A stretch of 64,000 nt of DNA from Fodinibius roseus (GTDB taxonomy: Bacteria; Bacteroidota; Rhodothermia; Balneolales; Balneolaceae): assembly GCF_900129315.1 (NCBI RefSeq), contig NZ_FQUS01000004.1, positions 62,001 through 126,000 on the forward strand. Reading direction: 5' to 3'. Within the stretch, counting starts at the first letter, position 1. Each line of letters starts with the position of its first letter. The position numbers were made by a program, and so were the translations under genes. The notes under the pieces are model-generated. The model was given only the letters and a program-made list of their open reading frames with translations, had not been told where the DNA came from and ran no database searches. Below are positions 554 through 19,470 of the stretch, piece by piece.

Positions 554-2953
554 TCACGTGGAGTGTTTGTGTTCGGCCTGGTATACTTTTTTAATCACAC
601 TTACGACACTGTCCGGGTTCAGCGATATGGAGTCAATGCCGCACTCCACCAGGAAAGCCGCGTAATCGGTATTATCACTGGGAGCCTGTCCACAGAAACC
701 GATCCTGATTCCCGCCTGGTGGCCGCGGCTTATTACCTCGCGGATCGCTTTTTTAACGGCCGGATCATTTTCATCAAATAGGTAGGCCAGATCCGCGGAG
801 TCCCGATCCACCCCCAGGATAAGCTGCGTCAGGTCGTTGGATCCGATGGAAAATCCGTCAAACAGTTCTGCATATTCTTCCGTCAGAATATAGTTGCTCG
901 GAATTTCACACATCATATAGATTTGAAGATCATTTTCACCGCGCCGCAAACCGAAGGTCTCCATCTGCTCCAACACTTTGCGCGCCTCCGTCAACGTCCT
1001 GCAAAAGGGGATCATAATGATCACATTGTCAAGTCCTATTTCTGCACGGACTTTCTTGAGGGCCCGGCACTCCAGGGCAAATCCATCCCGGTAGCCATCG
1101 CTGTAATAGCGCGAGGCACCCCGCCACCCCAGCATCGGGTTCTGTTCATCCGGTTCGAATTCATTGCCACCGATCAGATCGGCATACTCGTTGGTTTTGA
1201 AGTCACTGGTTCGCACGATGACGGGATCCGGGTGTTGTGAGGCGGCTATTTTGGCGATGCCGCTGGACAGCTTATCCACAAAATACTGCTCAAGGTCACT
1301 ATACCCCCTGGTCAGTTTTCTTATTTTGGCAAACTCATCCTCATTGATAATTCGTTCGGGATGGGCCAGCGCCATCGGATGGATGCGAATATGCTGACTG
1401 ATAATGAATTCCATGCGGGCCAGTCCCACCCCACGAACGGGAAGCCGCCACCATTTAAAGGCCGATTCAGGGGTGGCCAGATTTAACATGATATCCGTTT
1501 GGGGCTCGGGAAGATCGTCCAGATCAACCTCATTGACCTCAAAATCAATCTTGCCCTCATAGATCTTGCCCTCCTCCCCCTCCCCGCTCGAAAGGGTTAC
1601 CTCCTGTCCCTCTTCAAGTATTTTTGTCCCTTCGCCGGTACCCACCACAGCCGAGATGCCCAGCTCGCGACTGACAATGGCCGCATGACACGTTCGTCCC
1701 CCGAAATCCGTAATAATACCGGCTACGTTTTTCAGGGACGGTACCCAGTCGGGCTCCGTCATTTCCGTAACGAGTATGTGATCGGGCTGCAGATTTTGAA
1801 GATCAGTGATATCATGCACATGCTTTATAATACCATGAACGATATTGTTTCCGATACTTAATCCCCTGATCAACACCGGCGCTCCGTCTTCGTGCAGGCG
1901 ATAGGTTTTAAAACTCCCGCCAGCCTGCTGAGAGTGAATCGTCTCGGGACGAGCCTGCACGATATAAAGCTCACCGGTCGAGTCTTCTTTCACCCATTCG
2001 ATATCCATCGGTTTCCCGTAATGCTTTTCAATATCGGCCGCCCAGCGGGCCAGCCGGAGTATCTCCTCATCCCCGAGTACAAACGACTGCCGCTCCATCA
2101 TGGAAGTAGGCAAATTTTTCGTTTTGTTTTCCCCCTCCGAGGCATACACCATTTTAAGCTCTTTGCTGCCTTTTATTTTCTCAATAATGGGACGCTTTTC
2201 CTCAGCATTCAAAAAAGGCTTGAAGACAAAAAACTGGTCCGGGTTCACCGTACCCTGCACCACATTTTCCCCGAGTCCCCACGAACCGTTGATAAGCACC
2301 ACATTGGGGAAGCCCGACTCCGTATCCACCGTAAACATGACCCCGGAACAAGCCTTGTCGGCTCTGACCATTTTCTGGATTCCGATGGAAAGCGCCACCT
2401 TCATGTGATCGAACCCCTTTTCCTCGCGGTAGGAGATGGCCCGATCGGTAAAAAGGGAGGCAAAACATTTCTTACAGATCCCCACCAGTTCATCGCCCCC
2501 GCGAATGTTCAGGTACGTTTCCTGTTGGCCCGCAAAGCTGGCATCGGGGAGGTCCTCAGCGGTTGCGCTGCTTCGGACAGCCACATCTACGTCCCCGGTA
2601 TCGTACTGCCCGGATAACTCCGAATAAGCTGCTCGTATTTTCTCAGCCAGTGGAATCGGGAATACGCCCTTGTTGATCATCTGCCGGATTGAACGGCCGG
2701 CCTCTTCCAGAGATATATCCCCGCGCCGGAATCTGCCTATCTCTTCTTCGACAGGAGCCTCCAGGCTGTTTTCTTTCATAAAAGCCCAATAGGCCTCCGC
2801 GGTGGTGGCAAAGCCGTTGGGAACACGGACGCCCATCGGTTCCAGGTGTTTGATCATTTCACCAAGGGAGGCATTTTTACCGCCGACCAGGCCAACATCG
2901 TCTATTCCGACCTCTTCAAACCAACGTATATAGGGTGATGATTGTTTGTCCAT
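554..2953 (-). CDS. ppsA: Phosphoenolpyruvate synthase
   Basis: Converts pyruvate, ATP and water to phosphoenolpyruvate, AMP and phosphate. At 799 aa it has the full family length. The ATP-grasp domain covers about residues 15-340 (LVGGKNASLGEM, VAVRSSATAEDLPDASFAGQ, VQARPET). The mobile phosphohistidine domain has GGRTCHAAIVSRELG with the catalytic His at 423. The C-terminal barrel has IGSNDLTQLILGVDRDS and GFCGQAPSD with the proton-donor Cys. The gene lies directly before the ATPase beta gene. In proteobacterial low-oxygen/dormancy clusters ppsA genes also sit among universal stress proteins, so a role in carbon and energy balance during energy limitation is likely but inferred. Confidence 0.95.
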   Translation of the reverse strand: MDKQSSPYIRWFEEVGIDDVGLVGGKNASLGEMIKHLEPMGVRVPNGFATTAEAYWAFMKENSLEAPVEEEIGRFRRGDISLEEAGRSIRQMINKGVFPIPLAEKIRAAYSELSGQYDTGDVDVAVRSSATAEDLPDASFAGQQETYLNIRGGDELVGICKKCFASLFTDRAISYREEKGFDHMKVALSIGIQKMVRADKACSGVMFTVDTESGFPNVVLINGSWGLGENVVQGTVNPDQFFVFKPFLNAEEKRPIIEKIKGSKELKMVYASEGENKTKNLPTSMMERQSFVLGDEEILRLARWAADIEKHYGKPMDIEWVKEDSTGELYIVQARPETIHSQQAGGSFKTYRLHEDGAPVLIRGLSIGNNIVHGIIKHVHDITDLQNLQPDHILVTEMTEPDWVPSLKNVAGIITDFGGRTCHAAIVSRELGISAVVGTGEGTKILEEGQEVTLSSGEGEEGKIYEGKIDFEVNEVDLDDLPEPQTDIMLNLATPESAFKWWRLPVRGVGLARMEFIISQHIRIHPMALAHPERIINEDEFAKIRKLTRGYSDLEQYFVDKLSSGIAKIAASQHPDPVIVRTSDFKTNEYADLIGGNEFEPDEQNPMLGWRGASRYYSDGYRDGFALECRALKKVRAEIGLDNVIIMIPFCRTLTEARKVLEQMETFGLRRGENDLQIYMMCEIPSNYILTEEYAELFDGFSIGSNDLTQLILGVDRDSADLAYLFDENDPAVKKAIREVISRGHQAGIRIGFCGQAPSDNTDYAAFLVECGIDSISLNPDSVVSVIKKVYQAEHKHST

Positions 2954-3043: not shown

Positions 3044-3796
3044 TCAGCGTGCCACATAGCCTCCGTCCACCAACAGCGGGTGCCCGGTAACAAAAGAAGC
3101 TTCATCGGAAGCCAGCCACACAACGGCATCAGCTACCTCACGTGGCTTGCCCAACCGTCCTGCAGGATGAAGTGAAATGATATATTGTTTGGTTTCTTCA
3201 TCGGTGGTAATACCGGCATCTTCCAGCATCGGTGTTTCAATAAAGCCCGGACATACAGCATTGATACGTATACCTTTCTGTGCATATTCAATAGCAGCAG
3301 TTTTGGTAAGTCCCAGCAGACCGTGTTTGGAGGCAACATAAGCAGGTGCCTCGGCAAAACCCACATGTCCGAGTATGGAGGAAATATTAACAATCGAGCC
3401 GCTCCCATTCTCAAGCATGGCTTCAATTTCATATTTCATACACAAAAATTGTCCCCTCAGGTTAATATTGAGCACCTTATCCCACCCCGCGGTGCTGTAT
3501 TCACCGCTGGTTGCGGACTCTCCGCCTATACCGGCATTGTTACAGGCCATATCCAGGCGTCCGAATTTTTCTATTGCTTCATTAACCATATTGCGAACGT
3601 CATCCTCCCGGGATATATCCGCTTTGACAGAGAGAACCTCGGCTCCTTCTTCCTTGATCTTTTTCTCTGTTTCCTTAAGGTCTTCGCCTTTGATATCGGA
3701 AATTACGATATCGGCTCCCTTTCTTGCGAAGGCGATGGCCGTTTCCCTGCCGATACCCGTAGCTGCACCTGTAATTAAAGCAACTTTATTATCCAT
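3044..3796 (-). CDS. SDR family oxidoreductase (glucose 1-dehydrogenase-like)
   Basis: A 250-aa classical short-chain dehydrogenase. It has the Rossmann motif TGAATGIG near residue 9, the acidic residue after beta-2 (ISDIKG) suggesting NAD preference, NNAG near 90, and the catalytic Ser (IVNISS) and YVASK Tyr-Lys pair. The C-terminus LVDGGYVAR is typical of the glucose 1-dehydrogenase-like subgroup. The substrate cannot be told from sequence. It stands on the same strand as its neighbours, 90 nt upstream of ppsA, and may be co-expressed with it. Confidence 0.9.
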   Translation of the reverse strand: MDNKVALITGAATGIGRETAIAFARKGADIVISDIKGEDLKETEKKIKEEGAEVLSVKADISREDDVRNMVNEAIEKFGRLDMACNNAGIGGESATSGEYSTAGWDKVLNINLRGQFLCMKYEIEAMLENGSGSIVNISSILGHVGFAEAPAYVASKHGLLGLTKTAAIEYAQKGIRINAVCPGFIETPMLEDAGITTDEETKQYIISLHPAGRLGKPREVADAVVWLASDEASFVTGHPLLVDGGYVAR

Positions 3797-4118: not shown

Positions 4119-4568
4119 TCAATCTATCGGCACGGTTTTAGGTTTTTGCACCTCGGCTTTCGGAACAGTTACTTTTAAGACGCCATCCTTAAATCGAGCT
4201 TTGATTTTGTCATCCTTGCCTGCCGAGGGAAGCGTAAACGAACGCGTAAAACTACCATGATACCGCTCCTTGCGAAGAAAGTCCTCTTTCTCCTCTTTTT
4301 CCTCGTGCTGACGCTCGCCACTGATGGTCAATCTGTTATCCTTATAACTGACTTCCACATCTTCTTTGGAGATGCCCGGCAGGTCCACTGATACGATATA
4401 TTCTTCATCCGTTTCACTGACATCCGTATCCGGGGCCCATAGTTCCATTCGCATTCCATCGCCGCCCTCTCTGCGCGAAAAAGGTACGATATCATCGAAA
4501 AAACGATCCATCTCCCGCCGAATAGATTCAATCGGAGACAACTCGGATTTCTTTTGTATTGCTTTCAT
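4119..4568 (-). CDS. Small heat-shock protein, Hsp20/alpha-crystallin family
   Basis: A 149-aa ATP-independent holdase chaperone. The alpha-crystallin domain spans about residues 42-140: APDTDVSETDEEYIVSVDLPG at its start, ISKEDVEVSY, and the closing GVLKVTVPK. The short N-arm and C-tail fit bacterial class A/B proteins. The start is fixed by a strong Shine-Dalgarno AAGGAGGAG 5-6 nt before ATG, showing that this organism uses SD sequences. Two palindromes of the candidate operator type (4722-4739 and 4790-4807) lie upstream. Co-location with universal stress proteins and ppsA is typical of low-oxygen stress clusters. Confidence 0.95.
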   Translation of the reverse strand: MKAIQKKSELSPIESIRREMDRFFDDIVPFSRREGGDGMRMELWAPDTDVSETDEEYIVSVDLPGISKEDVEVSYKDNRLTISGERQHEEKEEKEDFLRKERYHGSFTRSFTLPSAGKDDKIKARFKDGVLKVTVPKAEVQKPKTVPID

Positions 4569-4721
4569 AATTACTCCTCCTTATTTGTATTGAAATTCTA
4601 TAAGCATTTTTCCGTAAAAATCCGGTTCTGCTTATTTCTCATATATAAGTAAGGAATTATATGGACACAGGTATGCAGTACGATCTTATCGAAACGTGTA
4701 GGAAAGCAGTAATTGTAGTGA

Positions 4722-4739
4722 TAGGGGATTTCCCTACAT
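4722..4739. promoter_or_regulatory. Candidate operator palindrome A
   Basis: TAGGGGATTTCCCTACAT, with perfect arms TAGGG-N5-CCCTA, 154 bp upstream of the Hsp20 start. It aligns without gaps to 17616-17633, 19288-19305 and, more weakly, 7436-7453. Confidence 0.5.
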
Positions 4740-5227: not shown

Positions 5228-5899
5228 CTACTCCAGGTTGGCGCCTTCCGTCTCCACCCATTTCACCGCATGCATCATGAGCTCCGTGGCGTTTTCAAGA
5301 TTAAGTTTGGTTTTAATCCGGGCCCGGTACGATTCCACTGTTTTTACAGCAAGATGTAGCTTTTCGGCTATTTCCCGGGTGTTATTCCCTTTGCCGGTAA
5401 GTTCGAAGACCTCCAGCTCACGATCGCTTAAAAGATCGAGGGGTGATTTATTGAGATCTTTTTGCCCGCTTGCCATGCCCAGCAGTAACTTTTCATTGAT
5501 GGCATCACTAACGTAGATTCGGCCATTGAGTATTTTTCTCACCGCTTTAATTAAAACATCCCCGGCTTCCTGCTTCATAACGTATCCCTTGGCCCCGGCA
5601 CGCAATACTCGTTCCGCGTATAAATTTTCCTCATGTCGCGATACGACCAGTATCTTCAGATCGGGATCCTGTGCAGCAAGATGCTTTACCAGTTCCAGGC
5701 CGCTCATGCCGGGCAGGGAGATATCTATAACGGCCAGATCAGGCGCAAGTTCATCGTATTTTTCCACGACCTCTTCAGCGCGCTCGAACTGTGCTATGAC
5801 TTCAAACCCAAGTTCCGAATCCAGCGTCATGGATAATCCTTTGCGCATCATCGGATGGTCGTCCACTACTATGATTTTTGTCTTGGAATCTTTACCCAT
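5228..5899 (-). CDS. Response regulator, NarL/FixJ (LuxR-HTH) family
   Basis: A 223-aa two-domain transcription factor. The receiver domain covers about residues 7-125 with the acidic pair DD (13-14), phospho-acceptor Asp59 in VIDISLPGMSG and Lys109 in GYVMK. The C-terminal LuxR-type helix-turn-helix (about 155-217) has LSDRELEVFEL and TREIAEKLHLAVKTVESYRARI. It follows the histidine kinase gene by 12 nt, so the two form a cognate pair. NarL/FixJ regulators bind short GGG/CCC-type inverted repeats in known cases, matching the recurrent palindromes nearby. That target assignment is inference. Confidence 0.95.
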   Translation of the reverse strand: MGKDSKTKIIVVDDHPMMRKGLSMTLDSELGFEVIAQFERAEEVVEKYDELAPDLAVIDISLPGMSGLELVKHLAAQDPDLKILVVSRHEENLYAERVLRAGAKGYVMKQEAGDVLIKAVRKILNGRIYVSDAINEKLLLGMASGQKDLNKSPLDLLSDRELEVFELTGKGNNTREIAEKLHLAVKTVESYRARIKTKLNLENATELMMHAVKWVETEGANLE

Positions 5900-5911: not shown

Positions 5912-7348
5912 TTATATTTTATTTACCATTTCAATATTGTACAACGGGATGCTGCATATTACCCGGGTCCATCCTTCAGGAGTTTCGGTAATATTCAAGT
6001 TGCCCCCTAATATATGGGAGCGGTATTTCATCGTATTGATGCCCATGCCTTTATCTTTTTTTTCACTTGTAGCGGGAAATCCTGTGCCATTATCTTCGAC
6101 AACAAGCTGTAATCTTTTTTTACTGTTATTGGCTTCCAGACGGACGAATATCTTTGTAGCCTGACCATGTTTGACTGCATTATTAATGGCTTCCTGTGCA
6201 ATGCGGTACAGGTGCAGGGCAACCGTCGGCTTTTCAATTTTAAAATCACTGGGACATTTAAAGGTGCATGGCGTATCCGTAAGTATTTCAATCCGCTCAC
6301 AAAGTCGACTCATGGCAGCCTGCAGTCCTTCATTTTCCAGCTCAATATGCGCCAGTCCATGCGCCAGTTCACGAGCTTGCTCATCCGCTTCCCTGATCAT
6401 ATTGGAAATTTCCAGCACTTCATCTGCCGCCGGCAGCCCGTTGGCTTCCAGCTTGCGGGCCAGATTCCTGCTGATCAGGCTTATGCCTGAAAGCATCTGT
6501 CCCAGTCCGTCGTGTAGTTCATGTGCGATACGGCGGCGCTCATCCTCGGCTATCTCAAGGATTTCATTTTCCAGCTTGCGCCGGTTACTGATATCTTTGA
6601 TTAATCCGGTAAAAATTACTTCATCCCCGACGTTAACCTCGCTTACAGCCAGCTCAATGGGAAATACGCTCCCGTCCTTTCGCTTGCCTCTTACTTCTCT
6701 GCCAATGCCGATAATTTTGCGTTCGCCCGTCTCCAGATAATTGTCCAGGTACTCATCATGCTCCTCATGGTAGGGAGACGGCATAAGCATGCTTATATTT
6801 TCCCCGATTACTTCTGCGGGTCGGTAGCCAAACATCTTCTCGGCTGCCTGGTTAAAGTTCTGAATGATTCCCTCTCTGTCAATGGTGATAATCCCTTCAA
6901 CAGCCGTTTCCAGAATCGCTTCGGTCCGGGCCTGGCTCTCGGCCAGCTCTAACTCCGCTTTTTTCTGCAAGCTGATGTCACTGGCATTACCCAGGATAAC
7001 CGGCTCTCCCCGGCTATTTTCGATCATAGTTCTCTTTACATCCAGCCAGATACGGGAACCGTCCTTATGGCGTCCCTCCATCTCAAGGGAAAGCTCCTTC
7101 CCTTTTTTTAAAAACTCCAGCTCATCCTTAAAATTGTCCGACTCCCGCCCCGGATAAAGTCGCCAGACCGGCTTGCCTATGATCTCCCCGGCTTTATAGC
7201 CAAACACTTTTTCACCGCCCCCATTCCAGTACAGGATCGTCCCCTCCAGATCCAACAGCATCACCAGCCGGGGAAGGTGATCCATCATCTTTCGCAGATC
7301 TTTTTCGTCAACCGGGTTATTTAAATATTCTTCTTTTAAGAGACTCAT
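5912..7348 (-). CDS. PAS-PAS histidine kinase with FixL-like heme PAS, HisKA_3 type
   Basis: A cytosolic sensor kinase of 478 aa from ATG 7348; an in-frame start at 7384 is less likely because the N-terminus MSLLKEEYLNN is the natural one. PAS1 is about residues 20-130 and PAS2 about 140-255. PAS2 contains LMPSPYHEEHDEYLDNY followed by IIGIGREVRGKRKDGSVFP, closely matching FixL. The FixL heme-ligand His corresponds to H197 and the oxygen-responsive Arg to R217. The HisKA_3 domain has ELHDGLGQ (phospho-His H279) and the HATPase has NNAVKHG, DNGTGF and GMGI. No transmembrane segment is seen. It probably senses oxygen and phosphorylates the adjacent regulator. Confidence 0.93.
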   Translation of the reverse strand: MSLLKEEYLNNPVDEKDLRKMMDHLPRLVMLLDLEGTILYWNGGGEKVFGYKAGEIIGKPVWRLYPGRESDNFKDELEFLKKGKELSLEMEGRHKDGSRIWLDVKRTMIENSRGEPVILGNASDISLQKKAELELAESQARTEAILETAVEGIITIDREGIIQNFNQAAEKMFGYRPAEVIGENISMLMPSPYHEEHDEYLDNYLETGERKIIGIGREVRGKRKDGSVFPIELAVSEVNVGDEVIFTGLIKDISNRRKLENEILEIAEDERRRIAHELHDGLGQMLSGISLISRNLARKLEANGLPAADEVLEISNMIREADEQARELAHGLAHIELENEGLQAAMSRLCERIEILTDTPCTFKCPSDFKIEKPTVALHLYRIAQEAINNAVKHGQATKIFVRLEANNSKKRLQLVVEDNGTGFPATSEKKDKGMGINTMKYRSHILGGNLNITETPEGWTRVICSIPLYNIEMVNKI

Positions 7349-7435
7349 AAGAAATTTTAATTGCGGATACGCACAAACACCCAAGTTAAAAAGTTATCGG
7401 ACTTCTCCTTAATTTAAATCTAAAATTTTAATACA

Positions 7436-7453
7436 TGGCAAATTCCCCTACAT
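7436..7453. promoter_or_regulatory. Candidate operator site E
   Basis: TGGCAAATTCCCCTACAT shares the right half CCCTACAT with site A, in the same spacing frame; the left half is poor. It lies in the divergent spacer between the histidine kinase (start 88 bp away) and the YciF-like gene (start 147 bp away). Confidence 0.35.
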
Positions 7454-7599
7454 CCTATTGTCAGGTTCCCCCCTACTTCCCGATCAGCTGTTCCCCTCTT
7501 TTCGGAATCCACAAAATATGGTTATATATAATTCAAGATGTTCACCTGATCAAAATAATTCTAAATATACCAGTAATTATACAATTAAAAATACCCGAT

Positions 7600-8145
7600 A
7601 TGAAAGATCAAGAACAGGATATCATAGATCTCTACGATTTAATGCTTGAGCAGCTGCGTGATCTGTACGACGGGGAGCGCCAGCAGCTTGATTATCTTCG
7701 TAAAGCCGAAGAGCAGGCAGATTCATTTGAGCTGGACGAAATCATACAGATGCATCGCAGGGAAACCAAAAATCAGCTGGAGCGAATAGAAGAAGTGTTT
7801 GACATACTCCATGAAGAACCGGCCGGTGAATCGTGCGATGGCATCAGGGGGATCATTGAGGAAGCGGTGAAGCTGAGTGATCGCTGCAAAAATCCGGAAG
7901 TGCGGGATGCTGCACTGGTAACCGCCATCCAGCATATCAACCACTATGAAATTGCCGGATACGGCACCGCCATCTCCTATGCCAAGGCCCATGAGCAACA
8001 CGATATTGCCGAACGTTTGCTCGATACGCTGAGAGAAGAAAAAAGGGCCGACATGGGATTAAGCGACCTCGCCCAGGATCAAATCAATCCGCACGCAAAA
8101 TGGACGGCTATTGTCAAAAAGTCGGAAAAGGAATCGACTTCATGA
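7600..8145 (+). CDS. YciE/YciF (DUF892) ferritin-like protein
   Basis: A 181-aa all-helical protein of the DUF892 group. LYDLMLEQLRDLYDGERQQLDYL at the N-terminus, MHRRETKNQLERIEEVF and AIQHINHYEIAGYGTAISYA supply the Glu/His residues typical of the ferritin-like bundle. Family members are stress-induced, probably metal-binding, and of uncertain reaction. The start ATG at 7600 is chosen because the upstream in-frame extension (from 7435) is AT-rich, overlaps the promoter zone and shows no homologous pattern. It is divergent from the sensor kinase gene. Confidence 0.88.
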   Translation: MKDQEQDIIDLYDLMLEQLRDLYDGERQQLDYLRKAEEQADSFELDEIIQMHRRETKNQLERIEEVFDILHEEPAGESCDGIRGIIEEAVKLSDRCKNPEVRDAALVTAIQHINHYEIAGYGTAISYAKAHEQHDIAERLLDTLREEKRADMGLSDLAQDQINPHAKWTAIVKKSEKESTS

Positions 8146-14436: not shown

Positions 14437-15312
14437 ATGGCTGATATCAATAACATTTTATTCCCGACTGACTTTTCCGAGAATACGTCCAATGCGCTCA
14501 CCTTTGCCCTGGAAATAGCCCGCGCCAGCGATGCAAAAGTGCATCTCATGCATTCCATCGAGGAACCCTATAATTTTGCCATGATGGATGAAGCCCCTAT
14601 CACTACAGAAGTCAAGCGAAGTATCAGCCAGACCGTAAAAAAACTGTTTAATACTCTGGAGGATGAAATCCGGAAAAATGACACCTACGGTGAGCTGAAT
14701 ATTGAAACCAGCATTCAAACCGGACGGGCCGTATATAACATTCTCGAAGAAGCCGGGAATCGAAATGCTGACCTGGTGGTTGTCGGGGCCAAAGGGCGGA
14801 CCGGGTTGAAAAAAATTCTCTTCGGCAGCACCACCGCAGAAGTTATACGTCGCGCCGAAGTACCGGTTTTGGCCGTACCCAAAGAAGCTTCGTACGAGGG
14901 ATTCAAACAGATCATCTTCGCCACTGACTATCAGGATGGCGATCTCGAAGCGCTGCAATTCGTGGTCAAACTGGCGAAATTGTTCAACTCAAAAATCAAT
15001 ATCTTTCATTCCTCGCTTAAAAACAATCTCAAAACCGAAATCATGTCCAGGGGGTTCAGGGATCTTGTAACAGAAAAAATATCTTATGATAACATTGAAT
15101 TTGAAACAACCCCGTCCACACGCTTCTTTGAAGCAGTAACGCAAAAAATGGCCCGGCACAGTATTTCACTGCTTGTAATGGTGCACTATGAGGAATCGTT
15201 CCCGCCCCTTCCCAAACGGCTTTCACAGGAAATGAGCTATTATTCAGAGGCTCCCCTGCTGGTGCTGCCGGGTCAAAAACTGACTAATGCTAAAAATGAT
15301 CATGTTGGATAA
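14437..15312 (+). CDS. Universal stress protein, tandem two-domain
   Basis: A 291-aa cytosolic UspA-family protein. Domain 1 (about 1-150) starts NNILFPTDFSENTSNAL and ends with the ATP-binding signature GAKGRTGLKKILFGST and VPVLAVP. Domain 2 (about 160-285) starts IIFATDYQDGDLEAL but lacks the GxxGR loop, so only the first domain should bind nucleotide. It is a paralogue of the protein at 20078-20923, sharing the same layout. USPs accumulate during starvation, hypoxia and stress. The gene stands alone. Confidence 0.93.
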   Translation: MADINNILFPTDFSENTSNALTFALEIARASDAKVHLMHSIEEPYNFAMMDEAPITTEVKRSISQTVKKLFNTLEDEIRKNDTYGELNIETSIQTGRAVYNILEEAGNRNADLVVVGAKGRTGLKKILFGSTTAEVIRRAEVPVLAVPKEASYEGFKQIIFATDYQDGDLEALQFVVKLAKLFNSKINIFHSSLKNNLKTEIMSRGFRDLVTEKISYDNIEFETTPSTRFFEAVTQKMARHSISLLVMVHYEESFPPLPKRLSQEMSYYSEAPLLVLPGQKLTNAKNDHVG

Positions 15313-16231: not shown

Positions 16232-17509
16232 TTAAATGACGGTGCGGTCAGCGATAAATTCAGACAGCGGCAAACCCCATGTAGGTATTTTTCCACCCGT
16301 TGTATAGTACATGGATTTAAAACCCATTTTGAGCATATGGGGCGTGTATCCCATTTTCAGGATACTGGTATCTCCACCCCACCATTCATCGGTATGCATG
16401 TAAAAGCCCTTGTGGCTTCCCATGTCGCCCATACATATAAGCATGAATTCCATCGGATCTATTTCTCCCTCGGGTTGATAATTCCCCACCTCCTTTCCGA
16501 CCACACGGGCCAACACTTCCGCTTCCATATGTCCCAGTGATCCCAGCTTCGGAACCGTAATGGAAGCCGCATCCCCAACCGCAAAAACCTCCGGGTAATC
16601 GGGATTGCGCATGTACCTGTCGGTAACAATAAACCCCTGATCATCTGAGATAGGTAATTCTTTCAGGAACGCGTGGGCTTCCCAGTTCGGAAAAATAATC
16701 TTTAGTTCGGCCTCAACGCTGCTGCCGTCCTTGAATTCAATGCCATCTTTATGAATTCTGCTGATTCCCCTGGTATTGGCCTTATACCCGTATCCCATCT
16801 CTTCCACCATGGGCAACAGCTGATCGAGAATCTGTTCTCCTGCATCTTCGGCAATGACTTCGGCGGGGGTGAACAGCGTTATTTTTTCAGCTCCGCCCAG
16901 GTCCCGCCTCTCAAGCCAGTCGGCCATTGAGAAGGCCACTTCTACCGGGGGACCCTCACAAGCTGCCTCGGCCACGGGCAACCCTTCCGGAAGCTTATCG
17001 CTTTTACCTTGTATAAAACGGTCCGAACCGATGGCAACCGGTCCCCCTTTATATCCTCCTTCGTGAAGATACCTTCGAATTTCATCCCCGTAAAACGTAT
17101 CCGTAAACGTATGACCATGTTCTGCAAAACCTTCGATCTTGTCAAAAGCCAAATGATTCCCCAGGGCAATAACCAGATAATCGTAAGCTATATTTTCGCT
17201 CGCAGAACCGGACCGCTCAGTTGGTATATAGGCAATATTTTTTTGGTCCACATCAATATTCCGGATGTCCCCCTGGATAAACCGGATGTGATCCCGGTCG
17301 AGAAATTTCATGAAGGGAAGGTGGAGTTCCGTGGCGGGATTATTGTTGTTCCACACCTCAATGGGAATATTGGGAATAAACGACAAATAAGGTTTGCGAT
17401 CGATACAGGTAATCTTTACCCCCTCACCTGCAAACTCCCGAAGATAACGAGCAGTCGTAAGTCCGGCGAAGTTGCATCCCAATACGAGAATATGCGGTTG
17501 CGCAGCCAT
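16232..17509 (-). CDS. SQR/NDH-2-like FAD-dependent oxidoreductase
   Basis: A 425-aa pyridine nucleotide-disulfide-type flavoprotein. ATG 17509 is preferred because MAAQPHILVLGCNFAGLT starts the FAD-binding strand directly; the extension to 17554 has no homology pattern. It has the second FAD motif EVFAVGDAAS near residue 315 and an AACEGPPVEVAF segment like sulfide:quinone oxidoreductases, plus further cysteines (LVLGC, LICMGDMG). A hydrophobic amphipathic C-terminus (HMLKMGFKSMYY) suggests membrane attachment. Sulfide or another donor to quinone is possible, unproven. First gene of a three-gene minus-strand unit; candidate operator C lies 107 bp upstream. Confidence 0.85.
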   Translation of the reverse strand: MAAQPHILVLGCNFAGLTTARYLREFAGEGVKITCIDRKPYLSFIPNIPIEVWNNNNPATELHLPFMKFLDRDHIRFIQGDIRNIDVDQKNIAYIPTERSGSASENIAYDYLVIALGNHLAFDKIEGFAEHGHTFTDTFYGDEIRRYLHEGGYKGGPVAIGSDRFIQGKSDKLPEGLPVAEAACEGPPVEVAFSMADWLERRDLGGAEKITLFTPAEVIAEDAGEQILDQLLPMVEEMGYGYKANTRGISRIHKDGIEFKDGSSVEAELKIIFPNWEAHAFLKELPISDDQGFIVTDRYMRNPDYPEVFAVGDAASITVPKLGSLGHMEAEVLARVVGKEVGNYQPEGEIDPMEFMLICMGDMGSHKGFYMHTDEWWGGDTSILKMGYTPHMLKMGFKSMYYTTGGKIPTWGLPLSEFIADRTVI

Positions 17510-17615
17510 GATGTTCTGGATTGAATTAATGTTTAATACATAATAAAAATTCAATGTCTCTCGTACTCAGACGAGTAACCTGATTGTTATGTAATTAATA
17601 GCTATCTCAATTATG

Positions 17616-17633
17616 TAGGGAATATTCTTACAT
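17616..17633. promoter_or_regulatory. Candidate operator palindrome C
   Basis: TAGGGAATATTCTTACAT, extended by ATG on the left to an imperfect 21-bp palindrome with outer arms ATGTA/TACAT. It sits 107 bp upstream of the SQR-like gene and aligns without gaps to site A. Confidence 0.5.
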
Positions 17634-19163: not shown

Positions 19164-19470
19164 AGTACGTTACACCAATTCTATTTTATTGAGATTAAAA
19201 ATACACAATAGAATTTCGGTTATTACCGGCAATCAAGATGTGGTTTTTCTCCCCCGGCCTTTTGTAGTTCACCGGCACGTTTGCCTGTAGGGAAAACCAT
19301 GACAGGCTGATCCATGCAGTATTTTCCCTCACAGATCCAAACAAACAATACCTACGTCATAATATCATTGATAGCGCTAATCTGCAGGTGAATAAATGAT
19401 CACACCATGGCGTAAACGTACGTTCGCTTATTGCAAAGGATCCCTTACTCTATAACTAACATGATCCCTA
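19164..19470. other. Divergent spacer with candidate operator D
   Basis: 307 bp between the Met-rich protein gene and the BCAM0308-like gene. It holds candidate operator D and nothing else that I recognise as coding. Confidence 0.6.
19288..19305. promoter_or_regulatory. Candidate operator palindrome D
   Basis: TAGGGAAAACCATGACAG, within outer arms CCTGT (19284-19288) and ACAGG (19302-19306). It is between the divergent Met-rich and BCAM0308-like genes and matches site C in the left half and site A2 in the right half. Confidence 0.45.

Follow-up and report, generated by a model that had tools for sequence, protein, structure and literature searches.

A probable FixL-type heme-PAS histidine kinase, a candidate operator and repeated loss of the heme histidine in a Balneolaceae stress region

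Our analysis of a 64,000-nucleotide stretch of the Fodinibius roseus genome (contig NZ_FQUS01000004.1, positions 62,001 to 126,000; hereafter the window) indicates that a sensor histidine kinase encoded there has, very probably, an oxygen-binding heme pocket like that of FixL. Moreover, sequence comparison suggests that the two-component switch to which this kinase belongs likely activates survival genes clustered nearby, by way of a palindromic DNA site, TGTARGG-N5-CCYTACA. The unexpected part is that the heme site has been lost repeatedly in the family under a largely constant regulon.

The kinase gene (5912..7348, minus strand) encodes 478 residues from an ATG start, with an alternative TTG possible 12 codons upstream. 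A Pfam scan places PAS_4/PAS_3 at about residues 23-117 (PAS-A), a second, heme-type PAS domain at 141-253 (PAS-B; 6e-35), HisKA_3 at 270-334 (PF07730, 48.6 bits) and an HATPase_c domain in the protein, and recognises no membrane or extracellular domain. PAS-B (6590..6928, minus strand) contains the predicted proximal heme ligand, H197 (codon at 6758..6760), and the equivalent of the O2-contacting Arg220 of BjFixL, R217 (codon at 6698..6700).

A preliminary description had called this second PAS domain FixL-like, and the resemblance is strong. Against PDB sequences PAS-B matches RmFixL with an E value of 1.3e-32, BjFixL with 2e-32 and DosP with 1e-18, while the best match beyond FixL and DosP reaches 5e-10; FixL chains occupy the first 13 rows of the match list, which argues at the sequence level that the match is not a chance one. 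The alignment to BjFixL is gapless, the Bj number being the window residue number plus 3, so that H197 corresponds to His200, N203 to Arg206, K211 to His214, I212 to Ile215, R217 to Arg220, L233 to Leu236 and V235 to Ile238. The pairing of H197 and R217 with His200 and Arg220, the retention of Leu236 and the replacements of Ile238 by Val, Arg206 by Asn and His214 by Lys had all been proposed beforehand, and each is found exactly as proposed. A structural alignment, which had been named as the check that could overturn the proposal, gives the identical register, with H197 falling on His200 and not away from the heme pocket. For this alignment we used an AF2 model of PAS-B (mean pLDDT 77, from a 34-row alignment), for which Foldseek returns FixL at all of ranks 1-20; VIA-align superposes model residues 1-139 on residues 129-267 of BjFixL 8js5 with Z 18.6, rmsd 1.9 and 39% identity, and Z ranges from 16 to 18.6 over FixL chains. 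The model has low confidence at the F helix and FG loop, which we considered as a signal of missing heme; we dropped this idea because a matched prediction for an orthologue lacking the His is equally low there, so the model is uninformative on heme. If FixL/DosP-type heme PAS domains are defined as cluster 3 of PMC10468136, then PAS-B goes with them in that its closest relatives are FixL/DosP PAS domains, in its fold and in its F-helix His at Bj200, and the Arg at Bj220 that marks FixL is present as R217. We regard heme binding by the window protein as likely, and the assignment to the heme-PAS type as well supported by sequence, by fold register and by the coordinated decay of the pocket in orthologues without the His, to which we return below.

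The pocket had also been described as modified, but this is not how it appears among its relatives. In a comparison set of 90 PAS domains that belong to this type and carry the His, drawn from Balneolota, Rhodothermota, Planctomycetota, Verrucomicrobiota, Proteobacteria and others, the window residues are the majority state at all three positions (Asn at Bj206 in 58, Lys at Bj214 in 61, Val at Bj238 in 83). Since the window pattern, HNKIRLV, is the commonest one, found in 44 of these 90 other His-bearing relatives, the window pocket is the ordinary pocket of a large PAS group, and it is BjFixL that is unusual within the group. FixL variants at Bj206 still bind heme, but the R206A variant of BjFixL weakens inhibition by O2 (PMC10765370), and the Asn that the window protein has at this position therefore counts against a FixL-like oxygen switch.

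Might PAS-B then bind heme and yet respond to NO, CO, sulfide or the redox state of the heme rather than to O2? The Asn, which may weaken O2 inhibition, speaks for such a signal, as does the precedent of DosP, which responds to sulfide, and of mycobacterial DosS, whose heme binds H2S (PMC9918477). A weakly sulfide-quinone-reductase-like gene, coding for a 440-aa FAD/NAD (pyridine-nucleotide) oxidoreductase (16232..17554, minus strand), moreover lies behind one of the palindromes of the window (TGTAGGGAATATTCTTACA, 17614..17632). However, the distal O2 pocket residues R217, L233 and I212 are all retained, and Hsp20, universal stress protein (Usp) and O2-independent HemG resemble low-oxygen regulons such as Burkholderia lxa, so that we consider a signal other than O2 unlikely, though not negligibly so. 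By analogy with FixL, an oxygen-responsive kinase in the window genome is plausible.

The gene directly after the kinase gene (5228..5899, minus strand) encodes its presumed partner, a NarL/LuxR-type response regulator with a receiver and a C-terminal GerE/LuxR domain, as in regulators of the NarL/DevR type. Conserved neighbours on the same strand are the genes for an Hsp20 small heat-shock protein (4119..4568), a short-chain dehydrogenase (SDR; 3044..3796) and phosphoenolpyruvate (PEP) synthase (554..2953; over the cut-off of NCBIfam TIGR01418), and the order kinase-regulator-Hsp20-SDR-PEP synthase is kept in several genera. Genes for DUF892 and Usp proteins are frequent neighbours of the kinase; in the window these are a ferritin-like DUF892 gene divergent from the kinase (7435..8145, plus strand, with a true start probably near 7600) and a tandem Usp gene (14437..15312, plus strand). 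The kinase had been said to head the stress region, and here we differ, since its gene sits inside the region and not at its head; that it controls the region is supported by the conserved gene order and by palindromes that cluster around the kinase and track with it. Directly after PEP synthase, left of the window and reaching into its start, lies an operon for an alternate F1F0 (N-type) ATPase (L151:8721-15545; genome C22:55720-62544), a type that pumps Na+, with beta, alpha and a subunits over their NCBIfam cut-offs. From gene sizes we had taken this cluster for an Mrp antiporter, a reading that the NCBIfam assignments led us to reject; several relatives have size-matched genes at the same place.

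How does this arrangement compare with known systems? We would describe the kinase as a FixL-type PAS domain joined to a HisKA_3 kinase and paired with a regulator of the NarL/DevR type, and not as an orthologue of FixL, which we rejected because the FixL equivalog NF041777 (NCBIfam) scores 177.9 bits against a cut-off of 850. With FixL/FixJ of rhizobia and Burkholderia it shares PAS-A and a heme-type PAS-B in front of the histidine kinase (PAS-A is likewise paired with the heme PAS in BjFixL 8js5), equivalents of His200 and Arg220, and a partner regulator with a LuxR-type DNA-binding domain. Unlike FixL, which has a HisKA (class I) core, the window kinase has a HisKA_3 core; its regulator is closer to DevR/NarL than to FixJ, and its regulon would be a stress island and not nif/fix. 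The DosS/DosT-DosR (DevR) system of mycobacterial dormancy is alike in its HisKA_3-type kinase, in its regulator, DevR (3c3w, E 7e-27) being the closest solved structure to the window regulator, and presumably in its Hsp20 and Usp targets and palindromic operator. It differs in operator sequence and in that DosS holds its heme in a GAF domain and not in a FixL-type PAS, a Pfam scan of the window kinase finding no GAF domain. The PAS domain of staphylococcal NreB carries a [4Fe-4S] cluster, for which it needs four Cys, whereas PAS-B of the window contains no cysteine and aligns to heme PAS domains; the targets of NreB/NreC are those of nitrate/nitrite respiration. NreB/NreC does resemble the present system in joining a PAS kinase, in that case O2-sensing, to a response regulator with a GC-rich palindrome (PMC8139620). 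Finally, the low-oxygen-activated (lxa) locus of Burkholderia cenocepacia groups Usp genes with the gene of a heat-shock protein, serving persistence under anoxia (PMC6127331, PMC9104464), and the present region has a similar grouping; it belongs to an unrelated phylum, and in the literature we did not see a FixL-type kinase described inside that locus.

The palindrome was first spotted, as TGTAGGG-N5-CCCTACA, by reading intergenic regions. Besides the site behind the oxidoreductase gene, the window has one 161 bp upstream of Hsp20 (GATAGGGGATTTCCCTACA, 4720..4738) and a weaker one between two divergent small genes (TGTAGGGAAAACCATGACA, 19286..19304). In this genome or its relatives palindromes stand upstream of Hsp20, kinase, DUF892, Usp and HemG genes, the sites at Usp genes being seen in relatives; the distance to the kinase, Hsp20, DUF892, Usp and other genes is mostly 70-230 bp, and this includes loci whose kinase lacks the His. 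We based the statistics on regions, on pattern counts and on a position weight matrix (PWM) over 99 kb. Genes cover 85% of the window plus 16 orthologous loci, yet 42 intergenic and 3 coding matches occur there at up to 3 mismatches, and 16 intergenic and 0 coding matches at up to 2. Other spacers between 0 and 12 give 0-8 intergenic matches against the 42 at spacer 5, and shuffled arms give a mean of 2.2, with a maximum equal to the real count that presumably comes from a shuffle restoring the real arms. The half-site TCCCCTACAT is no more frequent in the window alone than expected by chance; a signal emerges only when both arms are required, 5 bases apart, and several genomes are compared.

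Counted over the whole window genome with up to 2 mismatches allowed, the palindrome shows no excess (19 sites versus 72 for a reversed control pattern), and the evidence is therefore its clustering. Of the 19 sites, 9 lie around the kinase, to either side of it and within 44 kb, an interval set post hoc; and when the PWM is trained on other genomes alone, it picks out nine sites with a score of 15 or more in C22:27-87 kb and not one in the 39 kb that follow. Sites outside the window precede genes for a DksA-like protein, for proteins of unknown function and for HemG, the menaquinone-dependent protoporphyrinogen dehydrogenase (L150:15091-15624, C22:42090-42623; over the NCBIfam cut-off), which has two palindromes upstream, at L150:14883 and 14979. 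The left edge of the cluster holds a long open frame of 2907 aa (L150:761-9484, C22:27760-36483). A separate palindrome (L152:278-296, C47:278) lies upstream of an OmpR-type regulator and a HAMP kinase, by YceI-like genes and a methyltransferase. Balneolaceae genomes with a full-length kinase have on average 2.5 palindromes versus 1.1 in those without, the control pattern being equal in both, in a comparison that ignores kinship. Two members of the family in genus g12, G069 and G070, have 16 and 8 palindromes at up to 1 mismatch, far above other members, possibly reflecting an enlarged regulon.

That the motif is found also in genomes without the kinase, and that the predicted site at the window's own kinase promoter is weak (the divergent kinase/DUF892 promoter, 7432-7477, has only weak palindromes, and better ones stand there in relatives), would be natural if the palindrome belonged to another regulator and the kinase-regulator pair did not control the stress genes. 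We find this very unlikely in view of the clustering around the kinase, the tracking with it across genomes (kinship again ignored) and the recurrence of the palindrome beside sister regulators elsewhere: in many sister loci it follows the regulator gene at a distance of up to 450 bp, and it is perfect in L072 and L081. Its TAGGG...CCCTA core, moreover, resembles the NreC site, which we take to be TAGGG-N4-CCCTA. Because the palindrome clusters around the kinase and recurs beside sister regulators, the kinase-partnered regulator is its most likely binder, and the palindrome is probably the operator of that regulator. In the one sister locus that was checked for it, a YceI-like gene follows the regulator.

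On balance we favor a soluble two-component system in which a heme-PAS O2 kinase would act through a NarL/DevR-type regulator and the palindrome on a low-oxygen or energy-stress gene set. PAS-B would hold a b-type heme via H197, and O2, possibly also CO or NO, would be bound on the distal side of the heme next to R217. In the FixL family the deoxy heme is active and the oxy heme inactive; by this analogy autophosphorylation at H279 would be inhibited while a ligand is bound and activated once the heme is deoxygenated. The phosphate would be handed to the regulator, a dimer of which would sit on TGTARGG-N5-CCYTACA and induce Hsp20, Usp, DUF892, HemG (O2-independent heme synthesis), the oxidoreductase and neighbours. 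Such gene content would fit a low-oxygen or energy-stress response like that of lxa or the DosR regulon.

Does the heme site persist throughout the family? A relative of the kinase is present in 49 of 92 Balneolaceae genomes, and in a tree built on the kinase region, with the PAS columns left out, the kinases of the stress region form one group (20 rows, 99/98 support), with a sister group standing apart from it. Sister-group kinases keep the His in 30 of 30 rows, and the members that were inspected have, in our reading of the alignment, a receiver-like N-terminus instead of a PAS; L046, L047, L049, L050, L072 and L081 are examples with the same heme-type PAS, the inspected ones with that N-terminus. 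Within the stress-region group, on the other hand, 9 of 20 kinases lack the His, by five changes under parsimony and at least four when well-supported branches are counted. Identity to the family consensus drops at pocket positions from 0.81 in His-bearing kinases to 0.37 in the nine without it, and at other conserved positions from 0.77 to 0.65; the Mann-Whitney p of 5e-6 over positions is only indicative, because the rows are related and the pocket positions were chosen by analogy with FixL structures. Decay specific to the pocket is what one expects if the pocket serves heme, and the simplest reading of the sequences is that heme binding is real where the His is present and has been given up where it is absent.

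One could instead suppose that PAS-B is an apo sensor or a sensor of some other ligand, its FixL residues inherited and not used. Nine orthologues without the His, after at least four losses through which the regulator and mostly the palindrome stayed, are compatible with this, as is the lack of the His in about 40% of the published PAS cluster (PMC10468136), and a literature search gave no characterised member with exactly these residues plus a HisKA_3 kinase. The pocket is nonetheless conserved in His-bearing orthologues and decays specifically where the His is gone, and we judge an unused pocket quite unlikely.

Returning to heme binding where the His is present, what remains where it is absent? 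Orthologous loci without it retain the regulator and, for the most part, Hsp20 and the palindrome; four same-genus genomes with such a kinase keep kinase, regulator and Hsp20, and SDR and PEP synthase were not seen in the stretch of them that we examined. Since in at least four lineages the loss of the His left the regulator, and mostly the palindrome, in place, oxygen cannot be the family-wide signal: its control of the regulon is not universal in Balneolaceae, and the regulon can work without heme. We see about even chances that the oxygen sensor as such was removed at least four times, the heme pocket reading O2 in part of Balneolaceae and the same pocket, emptied, reading another signal in orthologues whose regulator, operator and core targets are unchanged.

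Thus, in a phylum that has received little study, an Hsp20/Usp/PEP-synthase island appears to stand under a FixL-type heme sensor joined to an output of the DevR/NarL type, and a concrete operator sequence is provided for testing. Pocket-specific loss of heme under a near-constant regulon makes ligand switching by PAS domains directly testable in closely related proteins and, if our reading is true, Balneolaceae would offer a natural series for the way in which a sensor takes a new ligand and leaves the wiring of its regulon as it was.
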